Source: Sorangium cellulosum
GTDB taxonomy: Bacteria > Myxococcota_A > Polyangia > Polyangiales > Polyangiaceae
Length of the DNA stretch: 38,818 nucleotides
Direction: 5' to 3'
NCBI RefSeq assembly: GCF_001589285.1
Contig: NZ_JEMA01000572.1
Coordinates: 1 to 38,818 of the forward strand
The translations under genes and the position numbers were made by a program. This document shows, in pieces, positions 1 through 31,562 of this stretch. Within the stretch, counting starts at the first letter, position 1; every line of letters starts with the position of its first letter. The notes below the pieces were generated by a model. The model saw only the letters and a program-made list of their open reading frames with translations, made no database searches and was not told the origin of the DNA.

Positions 1-2765
1 GTCGCCGCTCCCGGCGATGCCGGAGCCGGCTGTGGCCCCTCGCCCGGCGCCGGCACGACGCCCTGCAGCTCTTCCGGGGCGCCGCCGTCCGCGGCCTCCG
101 CGCCCGCGTCCGCCTCGGGGACCGGCGCCTCCTCGACCGGCTCCGTGCCGGCGACGAACACCTCCTCGATCGCGTCTTCCTGCCCTTCGCGCGCGAGCAG
201 CCCCGTCGCCGGATCGATCTTCACGCGCACCACGCCGCTCGGCACCGGGAAGTCGGCCGCCGGGCGCTTCGCGTGCGCCTGCTTCATGAAATCGACGAAC
301 GCCGGCAGCGCCGACGTGGCGCCCGCCTCGCCCTTGCCGAGCGGCGCCGCGTCGTCGTAGCCGGTCCACACAGCGCAGGCGATGTCGGTCGAGTAGCCGA
401 CGAACCATGTGTCCTTCGACTGGTTCGTCGTCCCCGTCTTGCCGGCGATCGGCCGCCCGAGCGATCGCGCCTGCCTCGCGGTCCCGCTCTGCACGACCGA
501 CGTCAGCAGGCTCGTGAGCACGTACGCCTCGGCCTCGTCCATCACGCGGTGCGCCGGCGGGCGCGGCGGCAGCGGGATCTCCACGCCTCCGGGCCCGACG
601 ATCTTCGTGATGAGGACCGGCTGCTCGTGGACGCCGCCCGCGGCGATGCTCGCGTACGCTGCCGCCATCTCGCGCGGCGTCACCTCGTACGCGCCGAGCG
701 CGAGCGACAGGTCCGCGCCGAGCTTCGACTGGACGCCGAGCGCGCCCGCGAACGCGGCCACGTTCGAGGCGCCGACGCGCGACATCGCCGACACAGCGGC
801 CACGTTCACGCTGTGCGCGAGCGCCTCGCGCAGCCGCGCGGGCGACTTCCCCTCGCTCTCGTCGTGGTTCTGCGGGTTGTACCCGGAGACGGCCGACGGG
901 TTGGTCTCCAGGATCGTCGCCGGCGTCAGCGTTCGCGCGTGGATCCCGTAGCCGTACACGAACGCCTTGAACGTCGACCCTGGCTGCCGCCGCGCGAACG
1001 TCGCGCGGTCGAGCCCGCCGCGCACCGCCTCGTAGCTGCCGACGAGCGCGACGATCTCGCGCGTCCGCACGTCGATCGCGACGAGCGCCCCCTCGGGCCC
1101 GAGCTCGAGCCGCATCGGCACCGGCGCCGCGGGCTTCGCCGCGCTGCCCGCGGCCGCGGCGCGCTTCGTCTCGCCGGCGGCGTCCTCGTCGTCCCCCTCG
1201 GCCGGCGCGATGGCCGCGACGACCGGCTCCGGCGCCGGGCCGATCAGGCTGACGCGCAGCACCTTGTCGACCTCGGCGAACTTGCTCGGCACGAGCCCGT
1301 TCGGGTTGTACCGCTGCGCGCCGCGGAGCGAGACCGTGCCCTCGACCGTGCCTACCCGCACCGAGAGCGTCCCTCGAGCGTCGTCGGCGCCCGTGACGAT
1401 CCCGCGGAAGACCTTGTGGCCGGAGGGCGCCCCGTCGAACGGCGGCGGCTCCTTCTTGGCCCGCGCGAGCGGGCCGAACAGCTTGTGCCGCTTCGCGTAC
1501 GCGTCGAGGTTCTTGCGGACCGCCGCGCGCGCCGCCGCCTGCATCGCCGGATCGATCGTGGTCGTGATCGTGTAGCCGCCCTGCTGCGCGGCGGGCCCCG
1601 CGACCTCGCGCAGCACGCGCTGCGCCTCGGAGACCACCTCGGGCGCGAGCTCCGCGAGCGACTCGGTCTCGATGGCGAGCACCACCGGCTCACGCTTCGC
1701 CTGCTCGACAAGGATCTCGTCCGCGAAGCCCTTGCGCTGCATCTGATCGAGCACGAAGTCGCGCCGCCCCGCGGCGCGCTCGAGGTTCACGCGGGGCGAG
1801 TACACCGACGGCCCCTTCACGACGGCGACGAGCAGCGCGGCCTCGGCGAGCGTCACGTCGCGCACGCCCTTGCCGAAGTAGTACCGGCTCGCCTCCTCGA
1901 CCCCGTAGCGGCCGTGGCCGAAGTAGATCTTGTTGAGGTAGAGCTCCAGGATCTCGTCCTTCGTGAGCTCCTGCTCGATCCTGCGGGCCAGGATGATCTC
2001 GCGCGCCTTGCGGCCGTAGGTCCGGTCCGGCGTGAGCAGGACGTTCTTGACGACCTGCTGGGTGATCGTGCTCGCGCCCTGCCTCGTCTGGGTCGAGCGG
2101 AGGTTCACCGCGAGCGCGCGGAGCATGCCGAGGTAGTTCAGCCCTGCGTGCTCGTAGAAGCCCGCGTCCTCGGCGGCGAGCGCGGCGAGCTTCACCTGGT
2201 TCGGGATCTCGCCGATGCGCACCACGGTGCGTCGCTCGGTGAAGAGCTCGCCGAGGCGCGTCCCGTCGCGCGCGAGGATGCGCGTCACCTGCGGGGGCCG
2301 GTAGTCCTTGAGCTCGCGGGTCGAGGGCAGGTCCGCCTCGTAGTGCTGGACGACGAGCACGACCGCGACGCCGGCGAGGACGAGCAGCGCCGCGAGCGCG
2401 ATCCCGATGCGCTTCGCCCAGGTCGCGAGCCTGGCGTTCCTGTCCTGCGCGGCCGCCCCGTCCGGCGGGAGCGGCGCGCCCTCGAGGTGCGGCGCGCTGA
2501 TCGGCCGCGCCCCCGCGCTGTTCCGCTGCGGCGGCTCGCTCCCTCGCCCCGGCGGCACGGACCTCCGCGCCGGCGGCTCCGACGCATGCCGCGGCGGCTC
2601 CGACGCCCGCCGCGGCGCCTCCGACGCCCGCCACGCCGGCTCCGACGCGCGCCGCGGCGGCTCCGATGTCCTCCGCGGCGGCTCCGAGGCGCGCCGCGGC
2701 GGATCGGCCTTGCCGTTTGGATCGTTCCCGTTTCCCCCAGGGTTCCCTGATTGCTCCGAGGCCAT
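1..2765 (-). CDS. mrcA: Class A penicillin-binding protein 1A (3' end beyond window)
   Basis: Bifunctional peptidoglycan synthase that polymerises glycan strands and cross-links stem peptides on the periplasmic face of the inner membrane. About 921 residues are visible; the C-terminus runs off the window. Order: cytoplasmic tail of about 115 residues with Arg/Ser/Pro heptads (22-84); one membrane segment (about 119-140); GT51 glycosyltransferase with catalytic Glu199 in LAALAAEDAGFYEH and the motif RQGASTITQQ (228-237); an OB-like insertion (about 452-510) typical of PBP1A; then transpeptidase with STFK (Ser597), SVN (652-654) and KTGT (776-779). A Pro/Glu/Ala-rich periplasmic tail follows. 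The ATG is the first in frame after the kinase gene, which lies 120 bases upstream on the same strand, so co-transcription is plausible. The family call is very sure; the repeat tail is the unusual part. Confidence 0.95.
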   Translation of the reverse strand, partial: MASEQSGNPGGNGNDPNGKADPPRRASEPPRRTSEPPRRASEPAWRASEAPRRASEPPRHASEPPARRSVPPGRGSEPPQRNSAGARPISAPHLEGAPLPPDGAAAQDRNARLATWAKRIGIALAALLVLAGVAVVLVVQHYEADLPSTRELKDYRPPQVTRILARDGTRLGELFTERRTVVRIGEIPNQVKLAALAAEDAGFYEHAGLNYLGMLRALAVNLRSTQTRQGASTITQQVVKNVLLTPDRTYGRKAREIILARRIEQELTKDEILELYLNKIYFGHGRYGVEEASRYYFGKGVRDVTLAEAALLVAVVKGPSVYSPRVNLERAAGRRDFVLDQMQRKGFADEILVEQAKREPVVLAIETESLAELAPEVVSEAQRVLREVAGPAAQQGGYTITTTIDPAMQAAARAAVRKNLDAYAKRHKLFGPLARAKKEPPPFDGAPSGHKVFRGIVTGADDARGTLSVRVGTVEGTVSLRGAQRYNPNGLVPSKFAEVDKVLRVSLIGPAPEPVVAAIAPAEGDDEDAAGETKRAAAAGSAAKPAAPVPMRLELGPEGALVAIDVRTREIVALVGSYEAVRGGLDRATFARRQPGSTFKAFVYGYGIHARTLTPATILETNPSAVSGYNPQNHDESEGKSPARLREALAHSVNVAAVSAMSRVGASNVAAFAGALGVQSKLGADLSLALGAYEVTPREMAAAYASIAAGGVHEQPVLITKIVGPGGVEIPLPPRPPAHRVMDEAEAYVLTSLLTSVVQSGTARQARSLGRPIAGKTGTTNQSKDTWFVGYSTDIACAVWTGYDDAAPLGKGEAGATSALPAFVDFMKQAHAKRPAADFPVPSGVVRVKIDPATGLLAREGQEDAIEEVFVAGTEPVEEAPVPEADAGAEAADGGAPEELQGVVPAPGEGPQPAPASPGAA
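2514..2702 (-). repeat. Nine tandem 21-base repeats encoding Arg-Arg-x-Ser heptads
   Basis: Within the PBP1A cytoplasmic tail, nine consecutive in-frame 21-base units encode heptads: PPRRASE, PPRRTSE, PPRRASE, PAWRASE, APRRASE, PPRHASE, PPARRSV, PPGRGSE, PPQRNSA (residues 22-84). The first six are closest to each other and the last three are degenerate, as expected for an ageing tandem array. Read directly from the reverse complement. Confidence 0.93.
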
Positions 2766-2885
2766 GACGTCGTCCCCGTGAACGCTGGCGCATGCGATGC
2801 GCATCCAGAGCGCCCGGCGCACCGGCGCGGCGACGCTAGCACGCCCGCGTGGGATCGCCTCGATCCTGGGCGCAGCGGCCGAGGA

Positions 2886-4082
2886 TCAGCCCTGGAACAG
2901 CCGCATGGCCACGATGGTGATCAGGATGCCGGCGATCAGGCACCCCGCCGCGATGCCGACGAGCAGCAGCGGCTTCGCCTCGGCCCTGGCCGGCGTATCG
3001 GCCTTGGTCGGCGTCTTGGCCAGGGGCGCCGGCTTGGCGGCCGGCGCCGGCGGCTGCTGCATCATCTTCACCGTCTTCGCCGGCGACTTGAACGTCGGCG
3101 CAGGCGCCTTGCTCGCCTGGAGCGCGGCGGCGTGCTGCTTCGCCGCCTGCTCGAGCACCGCGTTCGCGTTCTTCGGCATCATCGCCGTGTAGCCCTTGCC
3201 CGCGCCGCCCGCGAACGGCTTGAGCGCGTCCGCGAACTCGGCGGCCGACTCGAACCGGTCCTCGGGCCGCTTCTCGAGCGCCTTGCCGAGCACCGCCGCG
3301 AGCCCGTGCGGGAACTGCTTCCCGGGGACGCGCTCGTCGAGCGGGATCGGGTTCTTTGTCACGTGGTGCTGGATGTACTCCATCGGCGTGCGCGCCTCGA
3401 ACGGCAGCTTGCCCGTGAGCACCTCGTAGAGGATGGTCGCCAGCGAGTAGATGTCGCTGCGCGCGTCGAGCACCTTGCCCTGCGCCTGCTCGGGCGACAT
3501 GAACTCCGGCGTCCCGAAGACCATCCCCTCCTGCGTGAGCATCACCGACCCCGGCCTGAGCTCGCGCTCCGTCACCTTCGCGAGCCCGAAGTCGAGCACC
3601 TTCGGGTAGTCCTTCAGCCCGCCGTTGGTCGACAGGAAGATGTTCTCGGGCTTCAGGTCGCGGTGCACGATCCCCTGGATGTGCGCTTCCTGCAGGGCGC
3701 CGCAGACCTGGATGAGGATCGGGATCGCGCGCTCGACGGGCAGCGGCCCTTCCTTCCGGACCACCTGGTTCAGGTTCTTGCCCTCCAGGTACTCCATGAC
3801 GATGTACAGCGAGCCGTCCTCGAGCTCGCCGTAGAGCAGCACCTTCACTGTGTTCGGGTGCGTGAGATGACTCATCGCCCGCGCCTCGCGGCGGAAGCGA
3901 GAGACGAGATCTTTTCGGTTCGCGAGCTTCGGGTGGAGGATCTTCACCGCCACCATCCGGTTCATCGCCGGTTGTGCGGCCTTGTAGACCGACCCCATGC
4001 CGCCGGAGCCGATCTTCTGAAGAATCTGGAACTGCCCCCCGAGCAGATCTCGACCGATGTTCGGGTCCGGACCGGCGGCCAT
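2886..4082 (-). CDS. Tail-anchored eukaryote-like Ser/Thr protein kinase
   Basis: Hanks-type kinase of 398 residues that transfers phosphate from ATP to Ser/Thr. The kinase domain spans about 18-275: glycine loop GSGGMGSVYKA (25-35), Lys47 in VAVKIL, HRDLKPEN (140-147, catalytic Asp142), DFG at 164-166 and activation segment FGTPEFMSPEQ. A linker of about 90 residues rich in Ala, Pro and Lys follows. A single hydrophobic segment (about 372-393) then leaves only about five residues outside, so the kinase is anchored by its tail and has no extracytoplasmic sensor. The frame stays open far upstream, but MAAGPDPNIG is the natural start because the glycine loop lies 25 residues in and the upstream codons are antisense to pgeF. 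It sits upstream of, and in line with, the PBP1A gene. Confidence 0.93.
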   Translation of the reverse strand: MAAGPDPNIGRDLLGGQFQILQKIGSGGMGSVYKAAQPAMNRMVAVKILHPKLANRKDLVSRFRREARAMSHLTHPNTVKVLLYGELEDGSLYIVMEYLEGKNLNQVVRKEGPLPVERAIPILIQVCGALQEAHIQGIVHRDLKPENIFLSTNGGLKDYPKVLDFGLAKVTERELRPGSVMLTQEGMVFGTPEFMSPEQAQGKVLDARSDIYSLATILYEVLTGKLPFEARTPMEYIQHHVTKNPIPLDERVPGKQFPHGLAAVLGKALEKRPEDRFESAAEFADALKPFAGGAGKGYTAMMPKNANAVLEQAAKQHAAALQASKAPAPTFKSPAKTVKMMQQPPAPAAKPAPLAKTPTKADTPARAEAKPLLLVGIAAGCLIAGILITIVAMRLFQG

Positions 4083-4991: not shown

Positions 4992-6254
4992 ATGGTCTCG
5001 CTCGCGCGCGACTCGTCGCCGATCGTCCTCGCCATGGTGGGCCTGCCCGCCCGGGGGAAGACATCCATCGCCCGCAAGATCGCGCGGTACCTCTCGTGGC
5101 TCGGCCACCCCACGCGGCTCTTCAACGTCGGCAACTACCGCCGCGCGCACCTCGGCACCGCGCAGCCGCACCAGTTCTTCGACCCCGACAACACCTCGGG
5201 CCGCCAGGCGCTGCTCGGCATGGCGATGACGGCGCTCGACGACCTCATCGGCTGGCTCAGCTCCGGCGGCGAGGTGGCGATCTACGACGCCACGAACAGC
5301 ACCCGCGCTCGCCGGAACCTCGTCACCGAGCGCTGCCAGGCGCACGGCTTCCCGGTCGTCTTCATCGAGTCGATCTGCAACGACGAGTCAATCATCGAGA
5401 CCAACGTCCGCGAGACGAAGCTCCGCTCCCCGGACTACCAGGGCGTCGATCCCGAGGCGGCGCTACGCGATTTCCGCGCGCGCATCGCGCACTACGCCCG
5501 CGCGTACGAGCCGCTGGGCGAGCCCGAGAAGAGCTACATCAAGATCATCGACGTCGGCCGCCAGGTCGTGCTGAACCGCATCCACGGCTACCTGCCGGCG
5601 CGGCTCGTCCCGCTCTTGATGAACATGCACCTCACGCCGCACCCGATCTGGCTCACCCGCCACGGCGAGAGCGTGTTCAACGAGAAGGGCCTGCTCGGCG
5701 GCGACTCGGATCTCAGCGCGCGCGGCGACGAGTACGCGAAGAACCTCTCCGTCTTCATCCGCGAGCGGGCCGGCGACGAGTACGTCAACGTCTGGACGAG
5801 CACCCTGCGCCGGACCATCCAGACCGCGCGCCCGATCACGCAGAACCACGTCGCCTGGCGCGCCCTCGACGAGATCGACGCGGGCGTCTGCGAGGGCATG
5901 ACCTACGAGGAGATCCGGCAGCAGATGCCCGAGGTCTTCAACGCGCGCGCGGCCGACAAGTTCCGCTACCGCTACCCGCGCGGCGAGTCGTACGAGGACG
6001 TCATCCAGCGCCTCGACCCGCTGATCATCCAGCTCGAGCGCCAGCGCTCGCCCGTGCTCGTGATCGGCCACCAGGCGGTGCTGCGCGCGCTGTACGCCTA
6101 CCTCGTGGATCGCCCGGCGCCCTCGTGCCCGACGCTGCCGATCCCGCTGCACACCGTCATCGAGCTGACCCCGACCGCGTACGCCTGCGAGGAGCGCCGC
6201 TTCCAGCTCGCGCCCGCGGTCCAGGGCGGCGACTCGAGCACCGCGCACCCCTGA
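4992..6254 (+). CDS. Bifunctional 6-phosphofructo-2-kinase / fructose-2,6-bisphosphatase
   Basis: A 420-residue protein with the full two-domain layout of eukaryotic PFKFB, which makes and destroys the regulator fructose 2,6-bisphosphate. Kinase half (about 10-205): Walker A GLPARGKT (17-24), FNVGNYRR (44-51), IYDATNSTRARR (97-108). Phosphatase half (about 218-405): LTRHGES (221-227; Arg223 and phospho-acceptor His224), EIDAGVCEGMTYEEI (294-308, Glu301), YRYPRGESYED (326-336), IGHQAV with His360, then PLHTV and LTPTAYAC. All expected catalytic residues are present, and the junction IIDVGRQVVLNRI also follows the eukaryotic pattern. The start is the first ATG, with a weak ribosome site. Family assignment is very firm; in vivo direction of flux is unknown. 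Confidence 0.93.
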   Translation: MVSLARDSSPIVLAMVGLPARGKTSIARKIARYLSWLGHPTRLFNVGNYRRAHLGTAQPHQFFDPDNTSGRQALLGMAMTALDDLIGWLSSGGEVAIYDATNSTRARRNLVTERCQAHGFPVVFIESICNDESIIETNVRETKLRSPDYQGVDPEAALRDFRARIAHYARAYEPLGEPEKSYIKIIDVGRQVVLNRIHGYLPARLVPLLMNMHLTPHPIWLTRHGESVFNEKGLLGGDSDLSARGDEYAKNLSVFIRERAGDEYVNVWTSTLRRTIQTARPITQNHVAWRALDEIDAGVCEGMTYEEIRQQMPEVFNARAADKFRYRYPRGESYEDVIQRLDPLIIQLERQRSPVLVIGHQAVLRALYAYLVDRPAPSCPTLPIPLHTVIELTPTAYACEERRFQLAPAVQGGDSSTAHP

Positions 6255-30992: not shown

Positions 30993-31562
30993 TCAGCCGG
31001 GATCGCCGGCGTAGCACCGCACGCCAGCAGCGCCTCCGCCCGCGCCCATCGCGCCGTCGTCGGCGCCCTCCGCGCCCCCGGCGGTCCCGGTGGCGCCGTC
31101 ATCGGCGCTGCTCTCGCCGTCCGCGCCCTCTGCGCCGCCAGCGACCACCCGGAGCCAGTACTCGGAGCAGCTACCGTTCATGACGACCAGGTGCTGATCG
31201 TCGACGCAGATGACCTCGGCCTGGTTGCCCGCCGCGTGCGCCAGCGTCCCGCCGCTCCTCGTGCCGTCGCGCTCGAACGACAGGTACACCTGCCACCACC
31301 GCGGCCGCTGCCCGAGGTGATGCTTGAGCGCATACCGCATGCCGCCCGGGAAATGGAGGAGCTCGCCGTCCGGCGCCGAGGTCTCGTAGACGCCCCCCTC
31401 GGGCACGGCTTCGGTGAACTCGATCGGCGGGTTCTCGCTCTCGGAGCGATCGCACCTGCCCGGTGAGCACCCCGCCGCGAGCGCGGCCGACGCCCCCACC
31501 GCGCACGCGGCGGCCCACCTCGAACGCCGCGCAGCACCCCCGTCCGCGCCCCGGCGCTGCAT
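30993..31562 (-). CDS. Putative lipoprotein, low-complexity C-terminus
   Basis: A 189-residue product with an Arg-rich N-region, hydrophobic stretch WAAACAVGASAALAA and a lipobox ending in Cys32 (LAAGC), so probably a lipoprotein. The folded part (about 45-140) has GGVYETSAPDGELLHFPGG, WWQVYLSFERDG and CVDDQHLVVMNGSCSEYWLR. The end is a Gly/Ala/Asp repeat region (GGAEGADG, DDGATGTAGG, GGAEGADDGAMGAGGG) with a last Cys (RCYAGDPG). Family not recognised. Its ATG lies 3 bases behind the hemB stop, so it is translated from the same message. Convergent with the ABC exporter genes. Confidence 0.75.
   Translation of the reverse strand: MQRRGADGGAARRSRWAAACAVGASAALAAGCSPGRCDRSESENPPIEFTEAVPEGGVYETSAPDGELLHFPGGMRYALKHHLGQRPRWWQVYLSFERDGTRSGGTLAHAAGNQAEVICVDDQHLVVMNGSCSEYWLRVVAGGAEGADGESSADDGATGTAGGAEGADDGAMGAGGGAAGVRCYAGDPG

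Follow-up and report, generated by a model that had tools for sequence, protein, structure and literature searches.

The stretch of DNA considered here (the window) comprises 38,818 nucleotides from Sorangium cellulosum and corresponds to contig C570 of an assembly split into 1269 contigs, whose contamination is estimated at 7.94; the four named genomes that match the window best all belong to Sorangium (80-89% identity over the best-matching segment). Near its beginning, two co-directional genes encode a membrane-anchored Hanks-type Ser/Thr kinase and PBP1A, a class A penicillin-binding protein (PBP) with a heptad-bearing cytoplasmic tail. The pairing of these genes is old and conserved in the family Polyangiaceae, and the most plausible reading is that of a conserved kinase/PBP1A module combined with a minisatellite-built, disordered tail of younger age. 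The features are, in the order of transcription:

2886-4082, minus strand: tail-anchored Hanks Ser/Thr kinase of 398 residues, without PASTA or other extracytoplasmic domain
2970-3200, minus strand: juxtamembrane linker of the kinase (residues 295-371), of low confidence in the structure model and probably disordered
2895-2969, minus strand: C-terminal membrane helix of the kinase (residues 372-396 of 398), predicted from the structure model and hydropathy
2766-2885, minus strand: intergenic gap of 120 bases from the kinase stop to the PBP1A ATG at 2765, across which the PBP1A frame is open, with an in-frame ATG at 2804
3-2765, minus strand: PBP1A, with 921 codons in the window and its C-terminal end beyond the window edge
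2514-2702, minus strand: nine heptads in the cytoplasmic tail of PBP1A (residues 22-84), a 21-base minisatellite, predicted to be disordered
2334-2450, minus strand: predicted long helix with a single membrane span (residues 106-144) and W-x-K-R just ahead of the span

The upstream gene scores 168.7 bits with the Hanks-type kinase profile PF00069 (cut-off 31.7), its Pkinase domain covers residues 18-278, and the catalytic Lys, the HRD Asp and the DFG Asp are conserved in all 55 orthologues, which were accepted at a score of at least 330 bits. The structure model of the kinase is of low confidence (mean predicted local distance difference test (pLDDT) 63.1). The strongest hydrophobic stretch is followed by ~7 residues in the window's kinase and by 2-9 residues among the 55 orthologues, except for L183 (26) and L184 (71). 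Because the predicted membrane helix sits at the very C-terminus, the kinase presumably has no sensor domain outside the membrane. It also falls outside the PASTA kinases: its NF033483 score is 319.3 bits at a cut-off of 450, and no PASTA region follows the membrane span.

The downstream gene was assigned to the PBP1A family by TIGR02074 (538.5 bits; curated cut-off 508.75), and a profile search placed the Transgly domain at residues 169-343 and the Transpeptidase domain at residues 559-794. In a first-pass annotation, nine PPRRASE-type heptads had been read in the cytoplasmic tail, four of them (1, 2, 3 and 5) as exact matches to RRx[S/T], and a co-directional gene for a membrane-anchored Hanks kinase had been placed 120 bases upstream. 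All of this holds: translation of the minus strand from the ATG at 2765 yields the series PPRRASE PPRRTSE PPRRASE PAWRASE APRRASE PPRHASE PPARRSV PPGRGSE PPQRNSA, with the exact matches in the same four heptads, the gap to this ATG is exactly 120 bases, and the membrane anchor is predicted. At the DNA level, the heptads form a tandem array with a period of 21, 8.6 copies and 78% matches, whose score of 192 is the highest in the 38.8 kb window (the runner-up array reaches 75). Ser is present in all nine heptads and is encoded by TCG in heptads 1-6 and by TCC or AGC in heptads 7-9; heptads 1-6 are recent near-copies of each other in DNA. A second, weaker 21-base tandem array lies at 31030-31139 (60% matches, score 55).

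The structure model places the heptad tail N-terminally and in the cytoplasm, with pLDDT values below 50 for residues 1-105; a coiled coil was ruled out, since no secondary structure is predicted for these residues. Further on, W116 is nearly invariant (at least 90%) in an alignment of 20 sequences (A1). The start codon of PBP1A is uncertain, because a second in-frame ATG, 13 codons upstream of that at 2765, is common to all six Sorangium PBP1A copies that follow the kinase gene (the A copies). MRIACASVHGD or a near variant stands at this upstream ATG in each of the six, and its conservation suggests that translation begins further upstream or that a leader is conserved.

Conservation of the gene pair was assessed at the level of the genus and of the family. 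A genus search located PBP1A loci in all six Sorangium genomes (four of these loci were taken from an earlier match search with the window), and in each genome a kinase orthologue lies directly upstream of one PBP1A copy. In the family search, 75 of 79 Polyangiaceae genomes, drawn from a larger group, gave a PBP1A match at the set threshold; 72 of the 73 non-Sorangium matches were fetched with upstream DNA (the exception, from G022, lies at a contig end), and 65 loci entered the count after seven with less than 1400 bases upstream had been dropped. Start codons were set by rule as the first ATG after the kinase stop or else the first GTG/TTG, and tail lengths are hence approximate. The kinase orthologue is found upstream on the same strand and within 1200 bases in 45 of the 65 loci and within 200 bases in 35, and the two genes touch or overlap (gap of 0 or less) in 12, among them L184, for which the rule gives no start codon beyond the kinase stop (gap -151). 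Mapped onto a tree of 85 PBP1A rows, the label 'paired' requires 10 changes, compared with 21.1 in shuffles, which indicates that the pairing is inherited, with repeated loss or gain. When 46 more distant loci (L039-L084) were searched with the kinase, the sole match was in L059, with 28% identity and on the opposite strand. Seven Sorangium PBP1A paralogues (B and C copies) were read, of which L132 and L133, at contig ends, have cut tails and no upstream sequence; none of the other five is preceded by a kinase orthologue: upstream of L131 lie two kinase genes, both unrelated (30-35% identity), and the remaining four have no kinase gene in ~3.3-3.6 kb of upstream sequence. The conservation of the pair at family level makes it likely that the kinase gene and PBP1A are functionally linked.

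A repeat tail is not found wherever the pair occurs. At the 45 paired non-Sorangium loci, the tails measure 6-225 residues with a median of 48 and have 30 residues or fewer in 15 cases; in L164, the nearest outgroup to Sorangium (78% identity), the kinase gene lies 103 bases upstream and the tail has 24 residues. No R-x-x-S heptad array occurs in any of these 45 tails, the nearest in kind being a short Arg/Ser/Pro-rich stretch in L227. The heptads were thereby ruled out as a family-wide feature of the pair; they were seen in Sorangium only. Ser and Thr are altogether absent from the cytoplasmic segment in five of 46 kinase-paired non-Sorangium PBP1As (the 45 paired loci and L214, a locus with 1206 bases of upstream sequence), namely L170, L208, L211, L214 and L223, and three further PBP1As have just one such residue; in L170 and its four counterparts, the absence of Ser/Thr holds even when the count is rechecked with the longest possible reading. 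Because the kinase is kept with tails of 6-30 residues or with tails free of Ser/Thr, the pairing does not hinge on the heptads.

Within Sorangium, the repeat unit varies from strain to strain. PPRRASE-type heptads occur in the window and in So0157-2, and PLRQASD-type heptads, mostly with RQAS, in G001; a few degenerate units are seen in the metagenome-assembled genome BD_FP_2_bin.35. In So ce26 the unit is 12 residues long and includes RPASAPHIA, and in So ceGT47 it reads PPRAGSA. None of the seven Sorangium paralogues, two of them cut at the contig end, has R-x-x-S heptads. Unrelated short tandem repeats, of the PPPPSPPLAG, GPSEP, AEQAD and SAADG types, are present in the PBP1A tails of L129 (a Sorangium paralogue) and of L204, L215 and L229 (family), so that the PBP1A tail seems prone to repeat growth.

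The locus may be understood in the following manner. An old two-gene module of the Polyangiaceae, whose genes touch or overlap in a fifth of the sampled loci, consists of a tail-anchored, sensor-less Hanks kinase followed by PBP1A. The kinase would most likely act at the inner membrane, with either the PBP1A complex or a cytoplasmic wall-synthesis partner as its target, and wall growth would be tuned by phosphorylation, a control that we infer for this pair. The young and fast-changing feature, seen only in Sorangium, would be the growth of the 21-base minisatellite in the disordered PBP1A tail, whose most probable role is that of a flexible, charged spacer or of a docking region close to the membrane. 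Judging from the motifs, phosphorylation of the tail is possible in Sorangium, but the tail Ser would not be the reason why the kinase is retained in the genome. Its substrate is likely not the tail, or not the tail alone: the five PBP1As without cytoplasmic Ser/Thr point from the PBP tail to a partner protein, and the organisms concerned are good ones in which to seek the other substrate of the kinase.

The earlier proposal that the kinase tunes PBP1A via its tail survives in part; the functional link is likely (45 of 65 loci, and all Sorangium genomes), but no support was found for the heptads as the reason for the pairing. The co-occurrence of repeats and kinase gene, which the first-pass annotation had put forward for comparison among orthologues, is likewise seen in all six Sorangium A copies, but outside the genus a kinase without heptads is the rule. 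The reverse case, heptads kept without a kinase, which would have spoken against that annotation, was not seen among the family and genus loci examined.

Several observations weigh against a conserved module with a tail of secondary importance. Gene pairing by itself is no proof that one protein acts on the other. Among the 65 non-Sorangium loci, 17 have no kinase orthologue at the score used (they include L188, with a partial match of 301 bits ~5 kb upstream, where the fetched sequence ends, and L177, which groups with a Sorangium paralogue), in two the orthologue is more than 3 kb away, and in one it lies on the other strand. A phosphosite-like core may be maintained in Sorangium, given the 3-11 occurrences of R-x-x-[S/T]-x-P per A tail. 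Moreover, when motifs were compared with shuffles in five Sorangium tails and 14 others (the sixth Sorangium tail, that of G001, was only counted), RRx[S/T] exceeded the shuffles also in two of the others, L024 (p 0.04) and L038 (p 0.02), and L038 has a kinase orthologue on the same strand, ~3.6 kb upstream. The L038 tail (~5395-5800) is a non-repetitive, Ser/Arg-rich PBP1A tail in which RRx[S/T] occurs five times, and a kinase-substrate model would likewise single it out.

The alternative that survives best, although we consider it rather unlikely, is that the heptads are nothing but a near-neutral, GC-rich 21-base minisatellite, located where the protein can accommodate nearly any soluble sequence. 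The near-identical DNA of heptads 1-6, the variation of copy number and unit between strains and the unrelated repeats in other PBP1A tails are all consistent with it. Neutral growth sits less easily with the R-x-x-S-x-P core common to all six Sorangium A tails, and with a Fic-family protein of the same assembly in which independent heptads, KPQRASD/RPQRASD, are encoded by different codons. The latter protein, of 666 residues (L007, contig C480, at and around 960-1154, minus strand), has a long, histone-H1-like N-terminus rich in Lys, Arg and Ala, the heptads, and a Fic domain (PF02661, E 1.1e-8). Its heptads use CGC GCC AGC GAC, in contrast to mostly CGG/CGC GCG TCG GAG in PBP1A; the R-A-S-acid heptads of these two unrelated proteins thus do not look like DNA copies of each other. 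Owing to the fragmentation and estimated contamination of the assembly, the C480 protein may stem from another organism. The idea that the same heptad recurs in many proteins of the genome was rejected: a query with the tail, for which 150 of 455 candidates were scored, listed 46 matches, namely the window, the C480 protein (E 2.4e-6) and 44 with E values of at least 0.0565. A search with the heptad pattern gave 59 matches versus 16 in a reversed-pattern control.

It is unlikely, more so than neutral repeat growth, that the neighbouring kinase phosphorylates the heptad Ser at many sites and thereby tunes PBP1A, by charge or by recruitment of a partner. Four lines of evidence favour such a mechanism: (i) kinase and R-x-x-S tail occur together in all six Sorangium A copies, and the paralogues have neither heptads nor, in the five of seven with upstream sequence, the kinase orthologue; (ii) each of the nine heptads of the window contains Ser, and Arg three positions ahead of Ser is found again in several different repeat units; (iii) basic residues at -3 or -2 relative to Ser/Thr are above shuffles in each of the five Sorangium tails compared and in none of the 14 others; and (iv) according to passages of PMC4483258, phosphorylation of a PBP tail by a kinase is proven in mycobacteria. 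The shuffle p-values overstate the case, however, because the repeats are copies of one another, which the shuffles ignore, and the strict motif RRx[S/T] is above shuffles only in the window and So0157-2, two of the five Sorangium tails, the heptads of G001 being mostly RQAS. The retention of the kinase with very short or Ser/Thr-free tails also argues against a substrate role of the heptads.

The best remaining argument for phosphorylation is that the R-x-x-[S/T]-x-P core outlives changes of the repeat unit. It occurs six times in the window, 11 times in G001, eight in So0157-2, five in So ce26, four in So ceGT47 and three in BD_FP_2_bin.35, compared with at most two in any of 72 other family tails and none in the seven paralogues (two of them cut). 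Ancestry is another possible explanation of its persistence: two tail elements common to several strains already carry R..S.

The first-pass annotation had taken Arg-Arg-x-Ser/Thr as the acceptor pattern of basophilic, that is, Arg-reading, kinases. Positions 127, 170 and 230 of protein kinase A (PKA) were placed with the PKA sequence, in which all three are Glu. As stated in passages of PMC3219626, an acidic residue at position 127 reads Arg at P-3, and an acidic pair at positions 170 and 230 reads Arg at P-2/P-5. Among the 55 kinase orthologues, position 127 is Asn in 52 and Ser in three and thus never acidic, position 170 is Glu in all, and position 230 is acidic in none. By this rule, which derives from eukaryotic kinases and comes without a bacterial basophilic positive control, the pocket residues argue against an Arg-directed enzyme. 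The 13 other kinases found at these loci have Glu at 127 in no case (Asp in one) and no acidic residue at 230, and such a lack therefore appears common among the bacterial kinases of this sample. The view that RRxS marks a matched basophilic kinase, as the first-pass annotation had it, was abandoned on account of these pocket residues and of the tails of the other strains. As the heptad motif is a recent, strain-variable expansion, caution is warranted with substrate motifs read from one genome.

A role of the tail in the multivalent docking of a cytoplasmic adaptor, in the manner of GpsB and without need of phosphorylation, is distinctly improbable: the tail is Arg-rich, membrane-proximal, disordered and part of a class A PBP, and GpsB reads Arg in PBP mini-domains according to passages of PMC6335420, but SRxxR(R/K) is absent from the heptads (the tail was read by eye), and the tails are not conserved between genera. 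It is very doubtful, finally, that the ancestral pair has gained in Sorangium a length-tunable array for multi-site phosphorylation, in which slippage would vary the number of R-x-x-S-x-P units while the core is kept; if true, the gain of the kinase's control over peptidoglycan synthesis would depend on repeat number, strain by strain (3-11 units in six genomes).

Near the kinase/PBP1A pair and transcribed away from it, a gene on the plus strand (4992-6254) resembles bifunctional 6-phosphofructo-2-kinase/phosphatase (PF01591, E 1e-73; PF00300, E 5e-38), a domain combination known mainly from eukaryotes.

In Actinobacteria and Firmicutes, wall synthesis is known to be under kinase control, usually by PASTA kinases with several targets. 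A sensor-less, tail-anchored kinase retained beside one PBP across a Gram-negative family would provide a simple one-kinase, one-synthase pair for probing the kinase target; in full-text literature searches, judged by titles alone, no title named such a kinase/PBP1A pair or such a repeat tail. The Sorangium kinase resembles the PASTA kinases PknB, StkP and Stk1 in its membrane anchor, its wall context and its kinase domain, which among solved structures is closest to that of PknB, but ends shortly after its hydrophobic stretch, without PASTA or any other sensor domain. The heptads share RRAS with Kemptide, LRRASLG, a PKA substrate (PMC4183626), whereas the Sorangium kinase lacks the acidic residues 127 and 230 by which PKA reads the two Arg and keeps only that at 170. 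With the GpsB-binding mini-domains of Firmicutes class A PBPs, as they appear in passages of PMC6335420, the tail has in common an Arg-containing cytoplasmic segment ahead of the membrane span. The closest precedent, by analogy, would be the mycobacterial pair of PonA1 and PknB: passages of PMC4483258 describe a long, unconserved cytoplasmic tail of PonA1 that is phosphorylated by PknB, which slows elongation, the phosphosite being a single Thr (T34 in Mycobacterium tuberculosis). In both systems, one cell contains a membrane Hanks kinase and a class A PBP whose cytoplasmic tail is long and unconserved, with kinase control of wall growth as the common theme, proposed in the case of Sorangium. 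They differ in that the PonA1 tail is not called repetitive in these passages, whereas the Sorangium PBP1A, known from its genes, offers many Ser in tandem heptads, and in that the Sorangium kinase has no PASTA domains and is encoded next door to the PBP1A.

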